DNA of 64,000 nucleotides from Conexibacter sp. S30A1. Lineage in GTDB: Bacteria > Actinomycetota > Thermoleophilia > Solirubrobacterales > Solirubrobacteraceae. Shown piece by piece: positions 21,767 through 50,914 of the stretch (position 1 is its first letter; every line of letters starts with the position of its first letter). Both the position numbers and the translations under genes were made by a program. A model generated the notes under the pieces. The model made no database searches. It was not told the DNA's origin and worked only from the letters and a program-made list of their open reading frames with translations. Where the stretch lies: contig NZ_CP097127.1 of assembly GCF_023330665.1 (NCBI RefSeq), forward strand, positions 2,852,001 to 2,916,000. The letters are read 5' to 3'.

Positions 21767-22552
21767 GCTTGTTTGGGTTGACAGCCTTTAGGTGCATGCG
21801 ACCCAAACCGTCCTAGTCGAGCACGTGACGTGTGTGTTGATCCACTGGTGGCCCGAGGTCAAGAACGCACATGCCGACCGCGTCACCGCGCCGCCCTCAG
21901 CGTGAGCCACACGGGACGTGAGCACTGAACCTTCTGACTAGGATGTCAGGATCGACGTCGCTCCCTTTAGGTCCGGGCCGCTCTCCACTGTCTGAGTTCA
22001 GGTATGTCAGAACGACACTTACTCAGCGCCTATCATACACCACTATCGAGTTCGGTCTGGGCGCAACCCGCGCTCAGTCTGCGGTTTGGTTGATTCGGTT
22101 GCAGGCGTCCTTCATGAGTCGAGGAGCTGCGCGGCCGGTTCGTCTAGATGAAACTGCGGAGATTCTCGCTTTTCGGCGACGATGCAGTCTCGCCGGCTGC
22201 TATCAGCGCTCGCACGGAACGGTGTGGGCCACATTGAAGGTGCGCGGTAATCAGCTCCGCAAACCAGCGGTCGGCAAGGTTGATTCAATCGTGCCAGTTT
22301 CGCGTGAACTGCCGCAGCAGCCCCGGGGGCGCCGAGCCGGCCGGCGTCGAGCCGCCGGGAGTCGCGGTGACCGGAAGGGCGGACATCGCCTCAGGCTCGT
22401 AGAACGGTCCGAGCGCCCCTAACAGGGCCGGCGCCATCGCAAAACCCCTCCAATATCGAGGTAACGCGAACCCGCAGCCGGAACAGCTAGTTGAGCCGAT
22501 CGGGACTCAACGGGTCTCACCGGGTGCCCGGCGGCCCCGTTTTGATCTTAGC
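21767..22552. other. Divergent control region of the metabolic cargo
   Basis: 786 bp between the pxp genes (minus) and the GntR gene (plus). Frames on both strands are weak. It should hold the promoters of both transcription units, but only one clear promoter, at the right edge, is visible. Confidence 0.4.
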
Positions 22553-35932: not shown

Positions 35933-37497
35933 CTCGGGTTTCGCAGTTCATAGGTTGGCGTCGGCCCATGCTTGCTGGACGGCGCTGATTTCCCGGGTTG
36001 TGGGGGTTCGGGCTTGTTCGGGTTGAAATTGGTTGGCGATGATCGTTCGTCGTAGCTTGACGAGCATGTCGGTGAAGGACGGGGTGCTTTTCGTGAGGTA
36101 CCAGGGCGCACGAGCGCGATGCTCGGTGACGATGTCGGGGTGGTGGCCGTAAAGGGCGTACCAGACGATCGTGAGGTCCATGACCAGGAACTGGAACGGG
36201 ACCGTTCGCGCGACAGCGTTGGGGGTACGGTTGCGGGCCTCGCCGACCCCGAAGATCTCTTTGCCCTCGAGGAACGCGACCTCGATCGGCCAGCGGTCGG
36301 CGTAGCGCTCAACGATCTGGGTGGGTGTGGCCTGCAGGTCGGTGCTGATCAGCGCGATCTGGTAGCCGCACGGCCTGGTGTCGTCTTTGACGAGGATCAC
36401 CCGTACCGGGCTGTCGGGTCCCAGCGGCTCCCATAGGCAGCAGATCTCGGCGAGCTTGAGCGTCACGGGCTTGCCGTAGCGACAGACGGTGTGAGCCACC
36501 CATTCGGTCGCCGGGTCCAGTGCGATGTTGTTGAGGGCCGGGAGCCGGTCCCCCCATTTGCGGGGTCGGCCGCGTTTGCCGGTGCGTGGTGGCGCGGGGG
36601 CGTAGAGCACCGCGTTGGTACGCAACCTGGATGTGATCGTCACCCGCTTGGGCCGCTCACGCCACGCGCCGCTGATATACGCGCTGTCGCCGACAACATC
36701 GATCTGCCGATCGTGAAGCCGGGCGGCAAGCAGACAGATCATGTCGTTTGCGAGCTTCACTTTGCCGGGCCGTCCGGGATCGGGCTTTGACGCGCTCACA
36801 TACTGTTTGCGTCTGGGCTGCCAGAGCCTGAAGAGGACCGGCAGGCACACCGTCCGCTCCAGAAACGCCAGACGGATGCAGATCCCGGCCACAACCCAGT
36901 CATTGCCCCACGCGACCGACCCGGAGCGGCTGTTAGCGGTCGCGTCATGATGCCAAAACGTGCCGTGGATCCGGCGTCCGCGACGTTTCAAAAGCGTGTC
37001 ATCGACCGCGACCAGCACCGGCCCGCCGGGGTCTGTGAACCGCTCAACGATCAGGCACGCGAGCGCCAACCCCAGCTCGTCCACGGACCAACGCGCGTTG
37101 GCGAAGAACCGGTGGCAGCGAGCGTGATGCCAGATCCCCGACAGCCTGGCGCCTGTCAGCATCCCGGTCACGCACCGCAAACGGGTCTGGGAGACCTGAC
37201 CAACCACCAGGGCGCGAAACGTGTTGAACGTCGGCTGGGTGAAACACGACTCAAACAGGACAAGCAGCTCGTTCAGCGAAGATGGGACGCAGAGCATCGG
37301 CGGCGACCTCCAGGGGTCAGCCGCGCAGCGCGCCTCCCCTGGCTGCGACGGACAGGTTTCCTTGACAGCAACCGCTTTCGCAGCAGCCGCCGATGCTCCT
37401 TCCTCTCCCGCCCCGAGCTGCTCAGGCCATCAAGCCCGCAGCCACCCCGCCGCCGCCAACACGCCGCCGCTCAACCCACAAAAGTGCGAAACCCGAG
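35933..37497 (-). mobile_element. IS701-like insertion sequence (copy 1)
   Basis: 1,565 bp with ends CTCGGGTTTCGCAGTT (35933) and AAGTGCGAAACCCGAG (37482-37497) and a perfect 6-bp target duplication TACTCG (35927-35932, 37498-37503). It holds one intact transposase gene and inserted exactly at the right boundary of the integrative element. Confidence 0.88.
35948..37297 (-). CDS. IS701-like DDE transposase
   Basis: A 449-residue transposase of the IS4/IS701 superfamily (DDE_5-like). It starts MLCVPSSLNELLVLFESCFT followed by QPTFNTFRALVVGQV. Catalytic regions are PVLVAVDDTLLKRRGRRIHG (first Asp pair), IDVVGDSAYISGAW (second Asp) and RWPIEVAFLEGKEIFG (Glu). The fold and start match the transposase at 48285, but the sequences are quite different. 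No frame damage is seen. Confidence 0.88.
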   Translation of the reverse strand: MLCVPSSLNELLVLFESCFTQPTFNTFRALVVGQVSQTRLRCVTGMLTGARLSGIWHHARCHRFFANARWSVDELGLALACLIVERFTDPGGPVLVAVDDTLLKRRGRRIHGTFWHHDATANSRSGSVAWGNDWVVAGICIRLAFLERTVCLPVLFRLWQPRRKQYVSASKPDPGRPGKVKLANDMICLLAARLHDRQIDVVGDSAYISGAWRERPKRVTITSRLRTNAVLYAPAPPRTGKRGRPRKWGDRLPALNNIALDPATEWVAHTVCRYGKPVTLKLAEICCLWEPLGPDSPVRVILVKDDTRPCGYQIALISTDLQATPTQIVERYADRWPIEVAFLEGKEIFGVGEARNRTPNAVARTVPFQFLVMDLTIVWYALYGHHPDIVTEHRARAPWYLTKSTPSFTDMLVKLRRTIIANQFQPEQARTPTTREISAVQQAWADANL

Positions 37498-46686: not shown

Positions 46687-48211
46687 TCGCAACACCACCA
46701 CGGTTTGGGGGTTGCGATGGCTGGGACGGGAAGGCCGCGAGGGCGTCCGCCGCTGACGGCGCAGCGGGCGCAGTGGGCTGTGCTGATCGCGCAGGGGGTG
46801 AGCAACAGGGAGGCGTGCCGGCGTGTCGGGGTTGACCGCAGCTCGGGTAGGCACTGGCGTAACGGCGACACGGCGCGGGATGCCATCGGCCGTGTCCGGC
46901 ACTATCCGCCGGTGAAGATCATTGAGCCAAAGGCGCGCAGCGACCGGTATTTGAGCGAGGAGGAGCGGGTGCAGATCGCCGATTTGCGTGGTGAGGGGCT
47001 GGGTGTGCGTGAGATCGCCCGCCGGATCGGGCGCTGCGCCTCGACGGTCAGCCGTGAACTGTCCCGTAATGGCGGTGAGGATGGTTCCTATCGCCCGCAT
47101 GGCGCGCAACGTCTCGCCGGCGGGCGGCTTGGTCGTGCGCGGCAGCGTCGCGTCGCTACCGATACGGTGCTGCACGACACGGTTCTGGGGCTGCTTGGCA
47201 GGCGTTTCAGTCCGGAGCAGGTCTCCCACGAGCTGCACACGAGGTTTCCGGGTGAGCGCGCTCGGCAGTTGTGCACAGAGTCGATCTATCAGGCGATCTA
47301 TGACCCGTTGGTGGATATCACGCGTCCGTGCCGTAGACGGCGGCGTAAGCGGCGCCTGCGCCCTGATCAGCGTCGTCAAAGGCCTGAGAGCATGCGGATG
47401 ATCACCGAACGTCCGAGCGAGGTTGAAAGCCGTGATGTCGCCGGGCATTGGGAGGGTGATCTGATCAAGGGCGCGTACAACCGCAGTGCGATCGGCACGC
47501 TGGTTGAGCGCAAAACGAGGTTTGTGGTGTTGTTGCACCTGGACGGCGGGCAGGGCGCCCAGGCGCTGAACACGGCGCTTGAGCACAAGCTCGCCGTGCT
47601 GCCTGAGGCGCTGCGCCGGTCGCTGACCTGGGATCAAGGAACCGAGATGGCAGGCCATGAGCAGCTCAGCGCCAGCACCGGCACAAGCGTGTTCTTCTGT
47701 GAGGCTCACAGCCCTTGGCAGCGGGCATCCAACGAGAACATGAACGGTGTTTTGCGTGACTACTTCCCGAAGGGCAGCGACCTCTCACAGCACGGCCCGC
47801 AGGAGCTTGAGCGTGTCGCAGCAGAGATAAACGCTCGGCCACGCAGAACGCTGGGGTGGCACACCCCAGCACAGCTGTTGGACATGGAGCTTGAGCAGCT
47901 CGCCGCATAGACGCCGGGCGCAGCATCTCGCCCGCCCATAGCGTGTTGACGGCGTGTTCGCCAGCCGCGATCACCGCCAGTGCGGCCGGGTCCTGACATG
48001 CGCAGCATCGTGCGTGCTCGCGCACGATGTCCCCAGACCGTCGCTGTGCGGCAGGCCGCCGGTGTGCCGTGCCCCCGGGGGTGCCGGCCGCGCCCGTGGC
48101 GGGGTGAGAGCCATCGCCCCTCCGGGGCTCCTGCTCCCACCCCGCCACGGCACCCCGGTCTGTAGCGCTCCGTGACCCCAACCGGTAGGGTTGACCTGTC
48201 TACTGTTGCGA
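46687..48211 (+). mobile_element. IS30-family insertion sequence
   Basis: 1,525 bp with ends TCGCAACA (46687) and TGTTGCGA (48211) and a 2-bp duplication CG on each side, as usual for IS30. It contains one intact transposase and about 300 bp of GC-rich 3' sequence with hairpins but no other gene. Confidence 0.78.
46717..47910 (+). CDS. IS30-family transposase
   Basis: 397 residues from the ATG at 46717. Two HTH regions ([20 protein letters not shown] and [20 protein letters not shown]) precede the DDE core: [20 protein letters not shown] (first Asp), [13 protein letters not shown] (second Asp) and [16 protein letters not shown] (Glu), the IS30 signature. No damage is seen. Confidence 0.92.
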
Positions 48212-48284
48212 CGTTGACTGGAACTCGCCGTGTCCAGGCGTGCTTCTTAAAGCGCCCCACATGAAACTCTCGACTTTCGTGATC

Positions 48285-49604
48285 TCAGGCGGCGGCTTGG
48301 GCTGACGGTGACAGGGCGGGCGTGATTTGTGGTTCGGTGGTTGTCTGGGGTGCTTGTGCCCAGTATTCGTGTCGGATCAGCTCGCGGCGGAGCGTGGCGA
48401 GCATGTCGGTGTAGCTGACGCTGGTTTTCTGGCGGTACCACGGGGCGGCGCGCCGTCGGGCTTTGAGGTCGGCTTCGGGGTTGCCGTGCAGTTGGTACCA
48501 GGCGATCGTGATCGTCTGGGTGAGGAACCCGAACGGGACGGTCCGCTCGACGGCTTTCTGGACGCGGTTGCGCGGGTCGCCGACGCCGTGTGCTTTCGCT
48601 TCTTGATGGCAGGTCTCGATCGTCCAGCGGCTGTCGTAGCGGGCGATCAGCACCGCGGCGGTCGCGGTCGTGTCGGTTGACGCGAGTGCGATGTCGAACC
48701 CTTCGCTGGTGCCGGGGTTGCGGATCAGGATCACCTTTACCGCCCGTGTGTGTAACGGCCCGTACCACAGGCACGTGAACGCGTGGATGTGCGCGGTCCG
48801 CTCGCGGCCGCCGGGGGTGGTGACCGTGACCGGCGTGAACGCCGCAGCGGCGGCGAGCTTGGCGAGACTCGCGAGCCGGGCGCCCTTCAGCGCTGGGCGT
48901 CCCCGCTTGCCGGTTGGTTCCGGCGCGAACGCGAACACGGCCGCGTTGGAGCGCATTCTGGTCGTGAGCGTCACGCGGTCTGGTAGCCCTTGCCACGCCT
49001 TGCTGGCGTACGCGCCGTCCATCACCAGCTCCACGACCCGGCCCGGGAAACGCTTCAGGATCATGTCGATCAGCCGCCTCGCGAGCTCGGGTTGTGACGG
49101 GCGGTCCGGATGCTGCTCGTCCTTCGGGCGGAACAGCCGGAACAGGACCGGCAGCCCAACCTGCCGGCCGTCGAGGCACGGAAGCTCCACGACGAGCACG
49201 AGCACGACCCAGCAGTTCCCCCATCTGGTCCGCTGCCCGGATCCCTCGGGTTGCGCGCCGTCGTGGAGGTAGTGCGCGCCGAACACCTTGCGTCCGGAGC
49301 GGCCGAAGAGCGTGTCATCAACGGCGAACCGGATCGGGCCGTCGGGCTTGACGAACATCGTGATGAGGAAGTCCAACAGCCGAACGCCGAGCTCGTCAGG
49401 CTCCCAGCGTCGGCGGGCGAAGAAGTCGTGCGCGCGGCTGTGATGCCACTCGCCCGCGAGCCCGGCGGACTGCAGCATCCCCGTCACGGTGCAGTCCCGC
49501 ACCCGGCCGACCATCCCGACCACCAGCATGCTGAACGTCTGAAACGTTGGTTGCGTGAAGGATGGCGCGAGCAGGGACAACAGCCCGGCGAGCGAACTTG
49601 GCAT
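48285..49604 (-). CDS. IS701-like DDE transposase (copy 2)
   Basis: 439 residues from the ATG at 49604 (MPSSLAGLLSLLAPSFTQPT), which aligns with the start of the copy-1 transposase; an upstream start at 49676 is less likely. Catalytic segments are PIRFAVDDTLFGRSGRKVFG (first Asp pair), VELVMDGAYASKAW (second Asp) and RWTIETCHQEAKAHGVGDPR (Glu). Intact. Confidence 0.88.
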   Translation of the reverse strand: MPSSLAGLLSLLAPSFTQPTFQTFSMLVVGMVGRVRDCTVTGMLQSAGLAGEWHHSRAHDFFARRRWEPDELGVRLLDFLITMFVKPDGPIRFAVDDTLFGRSGRKVFGAHYLHDGAQPEGSGQRTRWGNCWVVLVLVVELPCLDGRQVGLPVLFRLFRPKDEQHPDRPSQPELARRLIDMILKRFPGRVVELVMDGAYASKAWQGLPDRVTLTTRMRSNAAVFAFAPEPTGKRGRPALKGARLASLAKLAAAAAFTPVTVTTPGGRERTAHIHAFTCLWYGPLHTRAVKVILIRNPGTSEGFDIALASTDTTATAAVLIARYDSRWTIETCHQEAKAHGVGDPRNRVQKAVERTVPFGFLTQTITIAWYQLHGNPEADLKARRRAAPWYRQKTSVSYTDMLATLRRELIRHEYWAQAPQTTTEPQITPALSPSAQAAA

Positions 49605-49783
49605 AGCGGCGACTCCTGGTGCAAAGGGCCGCGGGAACGTGTCAGCGTCTCGTGGCCAGATCGGCTTGTCGCGCACCAGATTCGGGTCGCCGCGACCTTC
49701 TCCTTGCCGTGCTCCAGGCGCGGGATGATCCGTCGCGCGGCGCCAAGGTCGCCGCGCCTGACGCGCAGGCTAGCCTTCCGCTT

Positions 49784-50779
49784 GTGTCTGACCTCGCAGC
49801 GATCGAGCGGGAACTCGATGTCGCCCGCGAGCGTGATGACAACACGGCGCGCGTTCGCTTGATCGCGCGCGCGCTCGAACTAACCGAGACGCAGCGGCAC
49901 CGCGCGGAGTACCTCGACGAGCTAGCGTATGCCTACCAGCAGCTCGGCCGGTTCGACGAAGCGGTCGACGCGATGCGCCAAGCCGTCGCCGCTGGATGGG
50001 ACGGCGACCTTGATGAGCACCCCAGCGCACAAGCACTGATCGCCGATCTGCTGCTGCACGCAGGACACACAGACCAGGCCGATATCGCCTGGCTAAACGC
50101 CGAGCGCGAGGACCCCGGCAACCCGTGGCTGCACCAAACAGCGGGCCTCGCCTACGCGGACGTCGGACTGCACAACAAGGCGTTGCCGTGGCAGACCAAA
50201 GGCCTCACGCTCGCGCTCGCCACCAACGTCGACAGCGACATGCTCTGGATGCTCACCAGCGAGCGAGCCGAAACCCTCGACGCGCTCAGCCAACCACCCG
50301 ACGAACTGCAACTCCAAGCTGAAGAACTCGTCGATCGCGAAGAACGAGCCGAACGAGCACGCGTTGACGCGTTCTACCGAGACCAGAGCACGCGGACGGT
50401 CCCGCCAAAGCACGCGTCGGTCGGTCTTGCCTGGTTCCCGGCCCAGGAGTACCAGCGAGCGCTCGAGACCTGGCCAAGCTTCGCCGAGGACTACGAGCAC
50501 GGACCCTACGACGCATACTGCGCCCGGCTCGAACTGCTCCTCCGACAGCTCAGAGCCCAGGGCGTCGCGCGGCTCGCGCTTGTGCCAATCACGATCGACA
50601 GCTACCTCGCCTGGTCCGCCGAGCACGACCGCGATCCCGAGCAATCAGACACCCGCGCGAGCTACGCCACCGAACTCCTCAAAACAACCACAACACATCC
50701 CTGGCCACCAGAGCGCAACCAGCCCTGCTGGTGCGGAAGCGAACGCAAGTACAAGAAGTGCTGTCTACGCGCCAGCTGA
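49784..50779 (+). CDS. TPR-repeat protein with C-terminal SEC-C zinc motif (passenger gene)
   Basis: 331 residues from the GTG at 49784. The N-terminal half has tetratricopeptide-like helix pairs (RAEYLDELAYAYQQLGRFDE, AVDAMRQAVAAGWDG; AGLAYADVGLHNKALPWQTK). The C terminus is a SEC-C zinc motif, QPCWCGSERKYKKCCL, as found at the end of SecA and in many stand-alone proteins that bind SecB, ribosomes or nucleic acids. The role here is unknown. It lies wholly inside the IS701-like element, divergent from the transposase. Confidence 0.8.
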   Translation: MSDLAAIERELDVARERDDNTARVRLIARALELTETQRHRAEYLDELAYAYQQLGRFDEAVDAMRQAVAAGWDGDLDEHPSAQALIADLLLHAGHTDQADIAWLNAEREDPGNPWLHQTAGLAYADVGLHNKALPWQTKGLTLALATNVDSDMLWMLTSERAETLDALSQPPDELQLQAEELVDREERAERARVDAFYRDQSTRTVPPKHASVGLAWFPAQEYQRALETWPSFAEDYEHGPYDAYCARLELLLRQLRAQGVARLALVPITIDSYLAWSAEHDRDPEQSDTRASYATELLKTTTTHPWPPERNQPCWCGSERKYKKCCLRAS

Positions 50780-50914
50780 CACCGCACATCGGACTGCGCC
50801 AACCCTCACCCAGCGACCTCGAAAAGCCCGAAACTCGAGGAAACTCCTAATTCCGTTTTAATGGTGATGGCGCGCGACGCTACCAGATCAACGCGCACTC
50901 GGCGTGACGGGCGC

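Follow-up and report, generated by a model that had tools for sequence, protein, structure and literature searches.

The question raised by this locus is whether an insertion sequence carries a second gene as part of the unit that it moves, or whether a host gene happens to lie next to it. Within the window (the whole 64-kb stretch of DNA analysed here), a 2571 bp IS701-like element occupies positions 48269–50839 and is bounded by the matching ends CTCGACTTTCG and CTCGAGTTTCG; its right end, read inwards, is CTCGAGTTTCGGGC, and 10 of its first 11 bases agree with the left end. The sequence-only reading of this DNA had claimed that these ends and the duplication GAAACT enclose both a transposase gene and a divergent 331-residue TPR/SEC-C gene, and this arrangement is present as claimed, the TPR/SEC-C ORF being divergent from the transposase gene (Table 1). 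The simple relative that it had described at 35933–37497 was likewise borne out, with a transposase only, the ends CTCGGGTTTCG and the 6 bp duplication TACTCG. Paired CTCGNNTTTCG ends no more than 6 kb apart occur in the whole window only at these two elements, and five end motifs were observed in it vs 0.5 in mono-nucleotide shuffles. A single end-like CTCGNNTTTCG motif at 22165, with no partner within 6 kb, is a chance match or a remnant. The locus is an IS701_3-type insertion sequence with an intact transposase gene of its own and a 6 bp target duplication, in which the unit includes a second gene.

Table 1. Features of the passenger-carrying element and of its simple relative, in window coordinates
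Feature	Position	Strand	Remarks
Left target-site duplication GAAACT	48263..48268	.	
Left terminal inverted repeat CTCGACTTTCGTGATC	48269..48284	+	10/11 terminal bases as in the right end; same end in sisters L117 and L118
DDE transposase, 439 aa	48285..49604	-	IS701_3 (NF049999), DDE_5, complete Y(2)R(3)E(6)K
Transposase leader with inverted arms GCGGCGAC (49606-49613) and GTCGCCGC (49686-49693)	49606..49693	-	Adjoins the transposase start codon; kept in relatives
TAGCCT and 7-nt spacer, -10-like site, probable leaderless promoter of the SEC-C gene	49771..49783	+	Kept in three diverged elements
Passenger gene, 331 aa: TPR 1-203, alpha/beta ~211-301, SEC-C 311-329	49784..50779	+	dN/dS ~0.21 vs L055
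Right terminal inverted repeat CCCGAAACTCGAG	50827..50839	-	Exact 13-mer in the host genome only at the ends of the two element copies
Right target-site duplication GAAACT	50840..50845	.	
Simple relative without passenger, 1565 bp, duplication TACTCG	35933..37497	-	Transposase 43% identical

The genome from which the window comes consists of one contig of 3.46 Mb, and it holds the passenger element in two copies. The second, at G000:C1:960610-963180, is full-length, differs by 1 mismatch in 2571 bp and has its own 6 bp duplication, CCCTAA. Because the two insertions (GAAACT and CCCTAA) use the same two ends, the SEC-C gene lies inside the moving unit, and the transposase and SEC-C genes move together as one. 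There is no good alternative end ahead of the SEC-C gene, since the best other match to the right end inside the element agrees at only 9 of 13 bases. Copies ending before the gene were sought as well; both copies in the host genome and a copy found elsewhere (L055) end after it, and only diverged sisters in other genomes, with transposase identities of 72–74%, lack it. Two copies with different duplications, together with a diverged relative, thus document an insertion sequence with a passenger gene. No uninterrupted target site was found in 30 relatives, and the left flank is part of a repeated sequence. An IS30-type transposase gene (HTH_38, rve) lies directly to the left of the element, at 46705–47910 (the flank extends to 48268), and the stretch immediately downstream of this gene recurs at other places in the genome.

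A tyrosine integrase gene (L169:824-2185; region G000:C1 ~954000-970000) is found about 4.5 kb away from the second copy, and the small ORFs that surround this copy yield few Pfam matches. The copy may thus be part of an integrated mobile island, which could aid the spread of the element.

The label IS701-like, which the sequence-only reading had used, stands by sequence model and falls short by two classical features. The transposase scores 263.5 bits against NCBIfam NF049999 (IS701_3; cut-off 170) and 85.5 bits against the general IS701 model NF033540 (cut-off 150). IS701, as defined in PMC2266710, has a 4 bp target duplication and an incomplete YREK motif, and IS4, according to the same source, has a complete YREK motif and duplications of 7–13 bp. 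Here, the Y(2)R(3)E(6)K motif is complete, as it is in all full-length relatives aligned, and target duplications of 6 bp flank both passenger copies as well as 17 of the 21 complete simple ones. The element shares the complete motif with IS4, but its duplication length is outside the IS4 range. Because of the complete YREK motif and the 6 bp duplications, we use the term IS701-like for the element and do not count it among the classical IS701 members.

The inverted arms beside the transposase start codon recur in L055, L117, L118, L122 and the simple element of the window (37280–37420; GCATCGGCGGC/GCCGCCGATGC). On read-through transcripts, such arms might keep translation masked. In folding predictions, the leader hairpin has an energy no better than that of shuffled sequence, and for this reason we do not present the hairpin as established.

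The passenger form is known from three genomes only, one of them with a fragment. A scan of GTDB species contigs yielded L055 (QHCC01000073.1), from a MAG filed as Pseudonocardiales, in which the transposase is 78% and the SEC-C protein 75% identical and the divergent order is the same; its right end CCCGAAACTCGAG is completed 43 bp past the last SEC-C codon, and on the left the copy is truncated by the end of the contig. The third carrier, G194, belongs to another genus of the same family as the host and has the same arrangement, with 75% identity over the first 154 SEC-C residues and 79% over the first part of the transposase. This copy is damaged: at about L122:1219 the transposase frame runs abruptly into unrelated sequence, possibly another mobile element, and the contig stops inside SEC-C. 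No carriers beyond G194 were found in the sampled genomes of the phylum and order, and no copy of the transposase/SEC-C pair in plasmid and viral collections.

Other relatives lack the gene. Two sisters from genomes of the same genus, L117 (1561 bp) and L118 (1521 bp), have the same CTCGACTTTCG ends and transposases 72–74% identical; in these elements, which are without the SEC-C gene, only some 200 bp separate the transposase from the right end. At least 22 simple copies were found in the window's own genome, 21 of them with both ends and 1565–1578 bp long; genome copy numbers are lower bounds, as 40 of 213 candidates were scored. Duplications of 6 bp flank 17 of the 21 complete copies, and those of the other four are of 5 or 7 bp. 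Together with the 7 bp repeat GTTCCTT that flanks the sister element at L118:2475-3995, these four indicate that the spacing of the cuts varies slightly. The abundance of simple copies in the 3.46-Mb genome (at least 22, loci L003–L024 in G000), mostly with clean 6 bp duplications, suggests a recent expansion. More distant relatives (L123, L124, L125 and L130) have candidate ends about 1.46–1.56 kb apart with a related start, and a duplication was found only at L125.

Since the sisters, the simple copies and the more distant relatives all lack the gene, the passenger form is derived and the gene was gained. Compared with L117 and L118, the three carriers share a deletion of 9 bp where the transposase starts, and 70% of bootstrap trees unite them in a single group (support 66/77). 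From this deletion and this grouping, a single gain of the SEC-C gene appears likely, although not proven; the support for a single capture (66/77) is modest because there are only three carrier genomes, one of them represented by a fragment.

The passenger protein ends in a SEC-C motif with the CxC...C(C/H) knuckle (Pfam PF02810, E 3.9e-9, 36.6 bits vs a cut-off of 20.4). In an AlphaFold2 model built with 26 homologues (pLDDT 92.8), a TPR solenoid extends to residue ~203 and is followed by an alpha/beta domain (~211–301) and the SEC-C knuckle CWCGSERKYKKCC. The alpha/beta and SEC-C part folds well alone (pLDDT 91.8, pTM 0.83). Structure searches with the passenger recover generic TPR proteins, and in the PDB nothing convincing matches the alpha/beta domain by itself (best E 0.6). 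Searches of PADLOC, PHROGs and NCBIfam gave only motif-level or generic matches, those of PADLOC covering no more than the region of the SEC-C motif (best E 4.5e-5). The protein, encoded by a single gene without a partner, showed neither a nuclease nor a toxin domain. Chromosomal homologues have 30–39% identity, and matches at E <= 1e-8 occur in 17 of 232 genomes of the order, two carriers included. These comparisons place the passenger in a TPR-alpha/beta-SEC-C family that is sporadic among actinobacteria. No IS701-type transposase lies within 1.5 kb on each side of the chromosomal relatives L026–L032, and we know of no function for any chromosomal relative.

Compared with L055, the SEC-C gene shows dN 0.153 and dS 0.727 (NG86), a dN/dS of ~0.21 over 24% protein divergence, and the transposase gene dN 0.169 and dS 0.559 (NG86). 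The passenger gene is intact and under purifying selection, constrained at least as strongly as the transposase. The TAGCCT-N7-GTG arrangement upstream of its start has identical spacing in all three carriers, and both strands of the 64-kb window together contain only four occurrences of the pattern TANNNT-N7-GTG. Taken with general knowledge of actinobacterial promoters, from which the leaderless reading draws, this suggests that the gene is transcribed from a leaderless promoter of its own (TAGCCT-N7-GTG), divergently from the transposase.

We therefore consider it highly probable that a mobile, selected passenger gene resides within an IS701-like element. An ancestor like the 1.5-kb sisters gained the TPR-alpha/beta-SEC-C gene in the stretch that separates the transposase leader from the right end, and the resulting unit probably moves by DDE cut-and-paste transposition. 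As to what the gene does, we favour tentatively that it encodes a soluble cytosolic adaptor or chaperone of the SecA-knuckle type, carried as cargo. The host SecA, too, has a SEC-C motif at its end. In SecA, the metal-binding domain binds iron or zinc and makes contact with SecB and ribosomes (PMC13178939); YecA, which shares a SecA-like metal-binding domain, is a proposed chaperone, and other proteins with such a domain may be Sec accessory factors (PMC8076867). The C-terminal knuckle of the passenger is predicted to bind zinc or iron and might make a ribosome or Sec-partner contact of the type made by the SecA metal-binding domain, the TPR groove would hold a client, and the protein would serve the host as cargo while the element benefits by retention. 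Because the alpha/beta domain has no convincing PDB match, this functional guess draws on motif-level similarity only.

Other readings differ in whom the gene serves, if anyone. Accessory proteins modulate transposition in some other insertion sequences, and the SEC-C protein could serve the element in this way, for instance if its TPR and SEC-C parts bind the transposase or the nascent transposase chain. The gene lies divergently, directly beside the transposase control region, in all three carriers, and purifying selection on it is at least as strong as on the transposase. Yet the sisters transposed without the gene, and so did at least 21 complete simple copies of the window's own genome, whose ends and duplications are intact. 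The chromosomal relatives L026–L032 have no such transposase within 1.5 kb on each side, and we regard a role in modulating transposition as somewhat unlikely. A narrower version, in which TPR-SEC-C is a translation- or transposase-linked cofactor within an IS701-like transposition module, perhaps holding nascent transposase at the ribosome, strikes us as improbable; if true, it would be the first such accessory factor for IS701-like elements. On protection or silencing of the host or the element by the passenger, which the sequence-only reading had raised, the results weigh neither way. Passengers of mobile elements can also be stability or defence genes, as in Tn3-family transposons, which carry toxin–antitoxin pairs next to the transposition module (PMC7157771). 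A gene that guards the element or gives phage resistance is decidedly improbable here, with the PADLOC matches confined to the motif region, a single gene without partner and no nuclease or toxin domain found.

The remaining readings deny the gene any selected role in the element. It could have been trapped between the ends by accident and be carried as a neutral hitchhiker, in keeping with the few copies, the few genomes and relatives that are chromosomal and outside such elements, but this is already disfavoured because of the dN/dS of ~0.21 across 24% protein divergence, and with intact frames and a conserved -10-like site also against it, we hold it to be very improbable. Alternatively, the ends could be chance matches, or a 1.5-kb element could have landed beside a host SEC-C gene. 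The terminal repeats are indeed short, and the right end is far from the transposase compared with the sisters. The second copy, flanked by a duplication of its own (CCCTAA), refutes this reading, which receives practically no credence from us, as L055 has the same right end and no other exact right end exists in the genome.

The selected passenger within an IS701-like element is an unusual addition to a known element type, an insertion sequence with a passenger, and not a new kind of system. With IS701_3-type elements (NF049999), it has in common a score above the model cut-off, a single transposase ORF, DDE_5 and the CTCGNNTTTCG-type ends of the simple copies; it differs in its second, divergent gene and in its length, 2571 bp vs about 1460–1578 bp. 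The IS231 subgroup of IS4 resembles it in having extra genes between one end and the transposase and a complete YREK, but belongs to another transposase group, with other ends and 10–12 bp duplications vs 6 bp here (PMC2266710). Chromosomal actinobacterial TPR/SEC-C proteins (for example L162, L163 and L164) share the three-part architecture, 35–36% full-length identity and the CWCGSxRKYKKCC knuckle with the passenger, whereas those examined are not beside such a transposase. YecA/AscA and other proteins with a SecA-like metal-binding domain (PMC8076867) also have the SEC-C knuckle on another protein, but in family searches only the knuckle is common, the TPR and alpha/beta parts of the passenger being unmatched to them. 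A survey of 2008 reported passengers only in the IS231 subgroup of IS4, other families not having been systematically searched (PMC2266710). In open-licence papers, a scope in which an earlier report published elsewhere could have been missed, we found nothing specific on IS701 or SEC-C passengers.

A well-populated actinobacterial transposase group, with 6 bp duplications and a complete YREK, falls between the definitions of IS4 and IS701. The element described here shows that an IS701-like insertion sequence has gained a non-transposition gene and kept it under selection, and elements that share their ends but differ in whether they have the gene offer a natural experiment for the role of TPR/SEC-C proteins.
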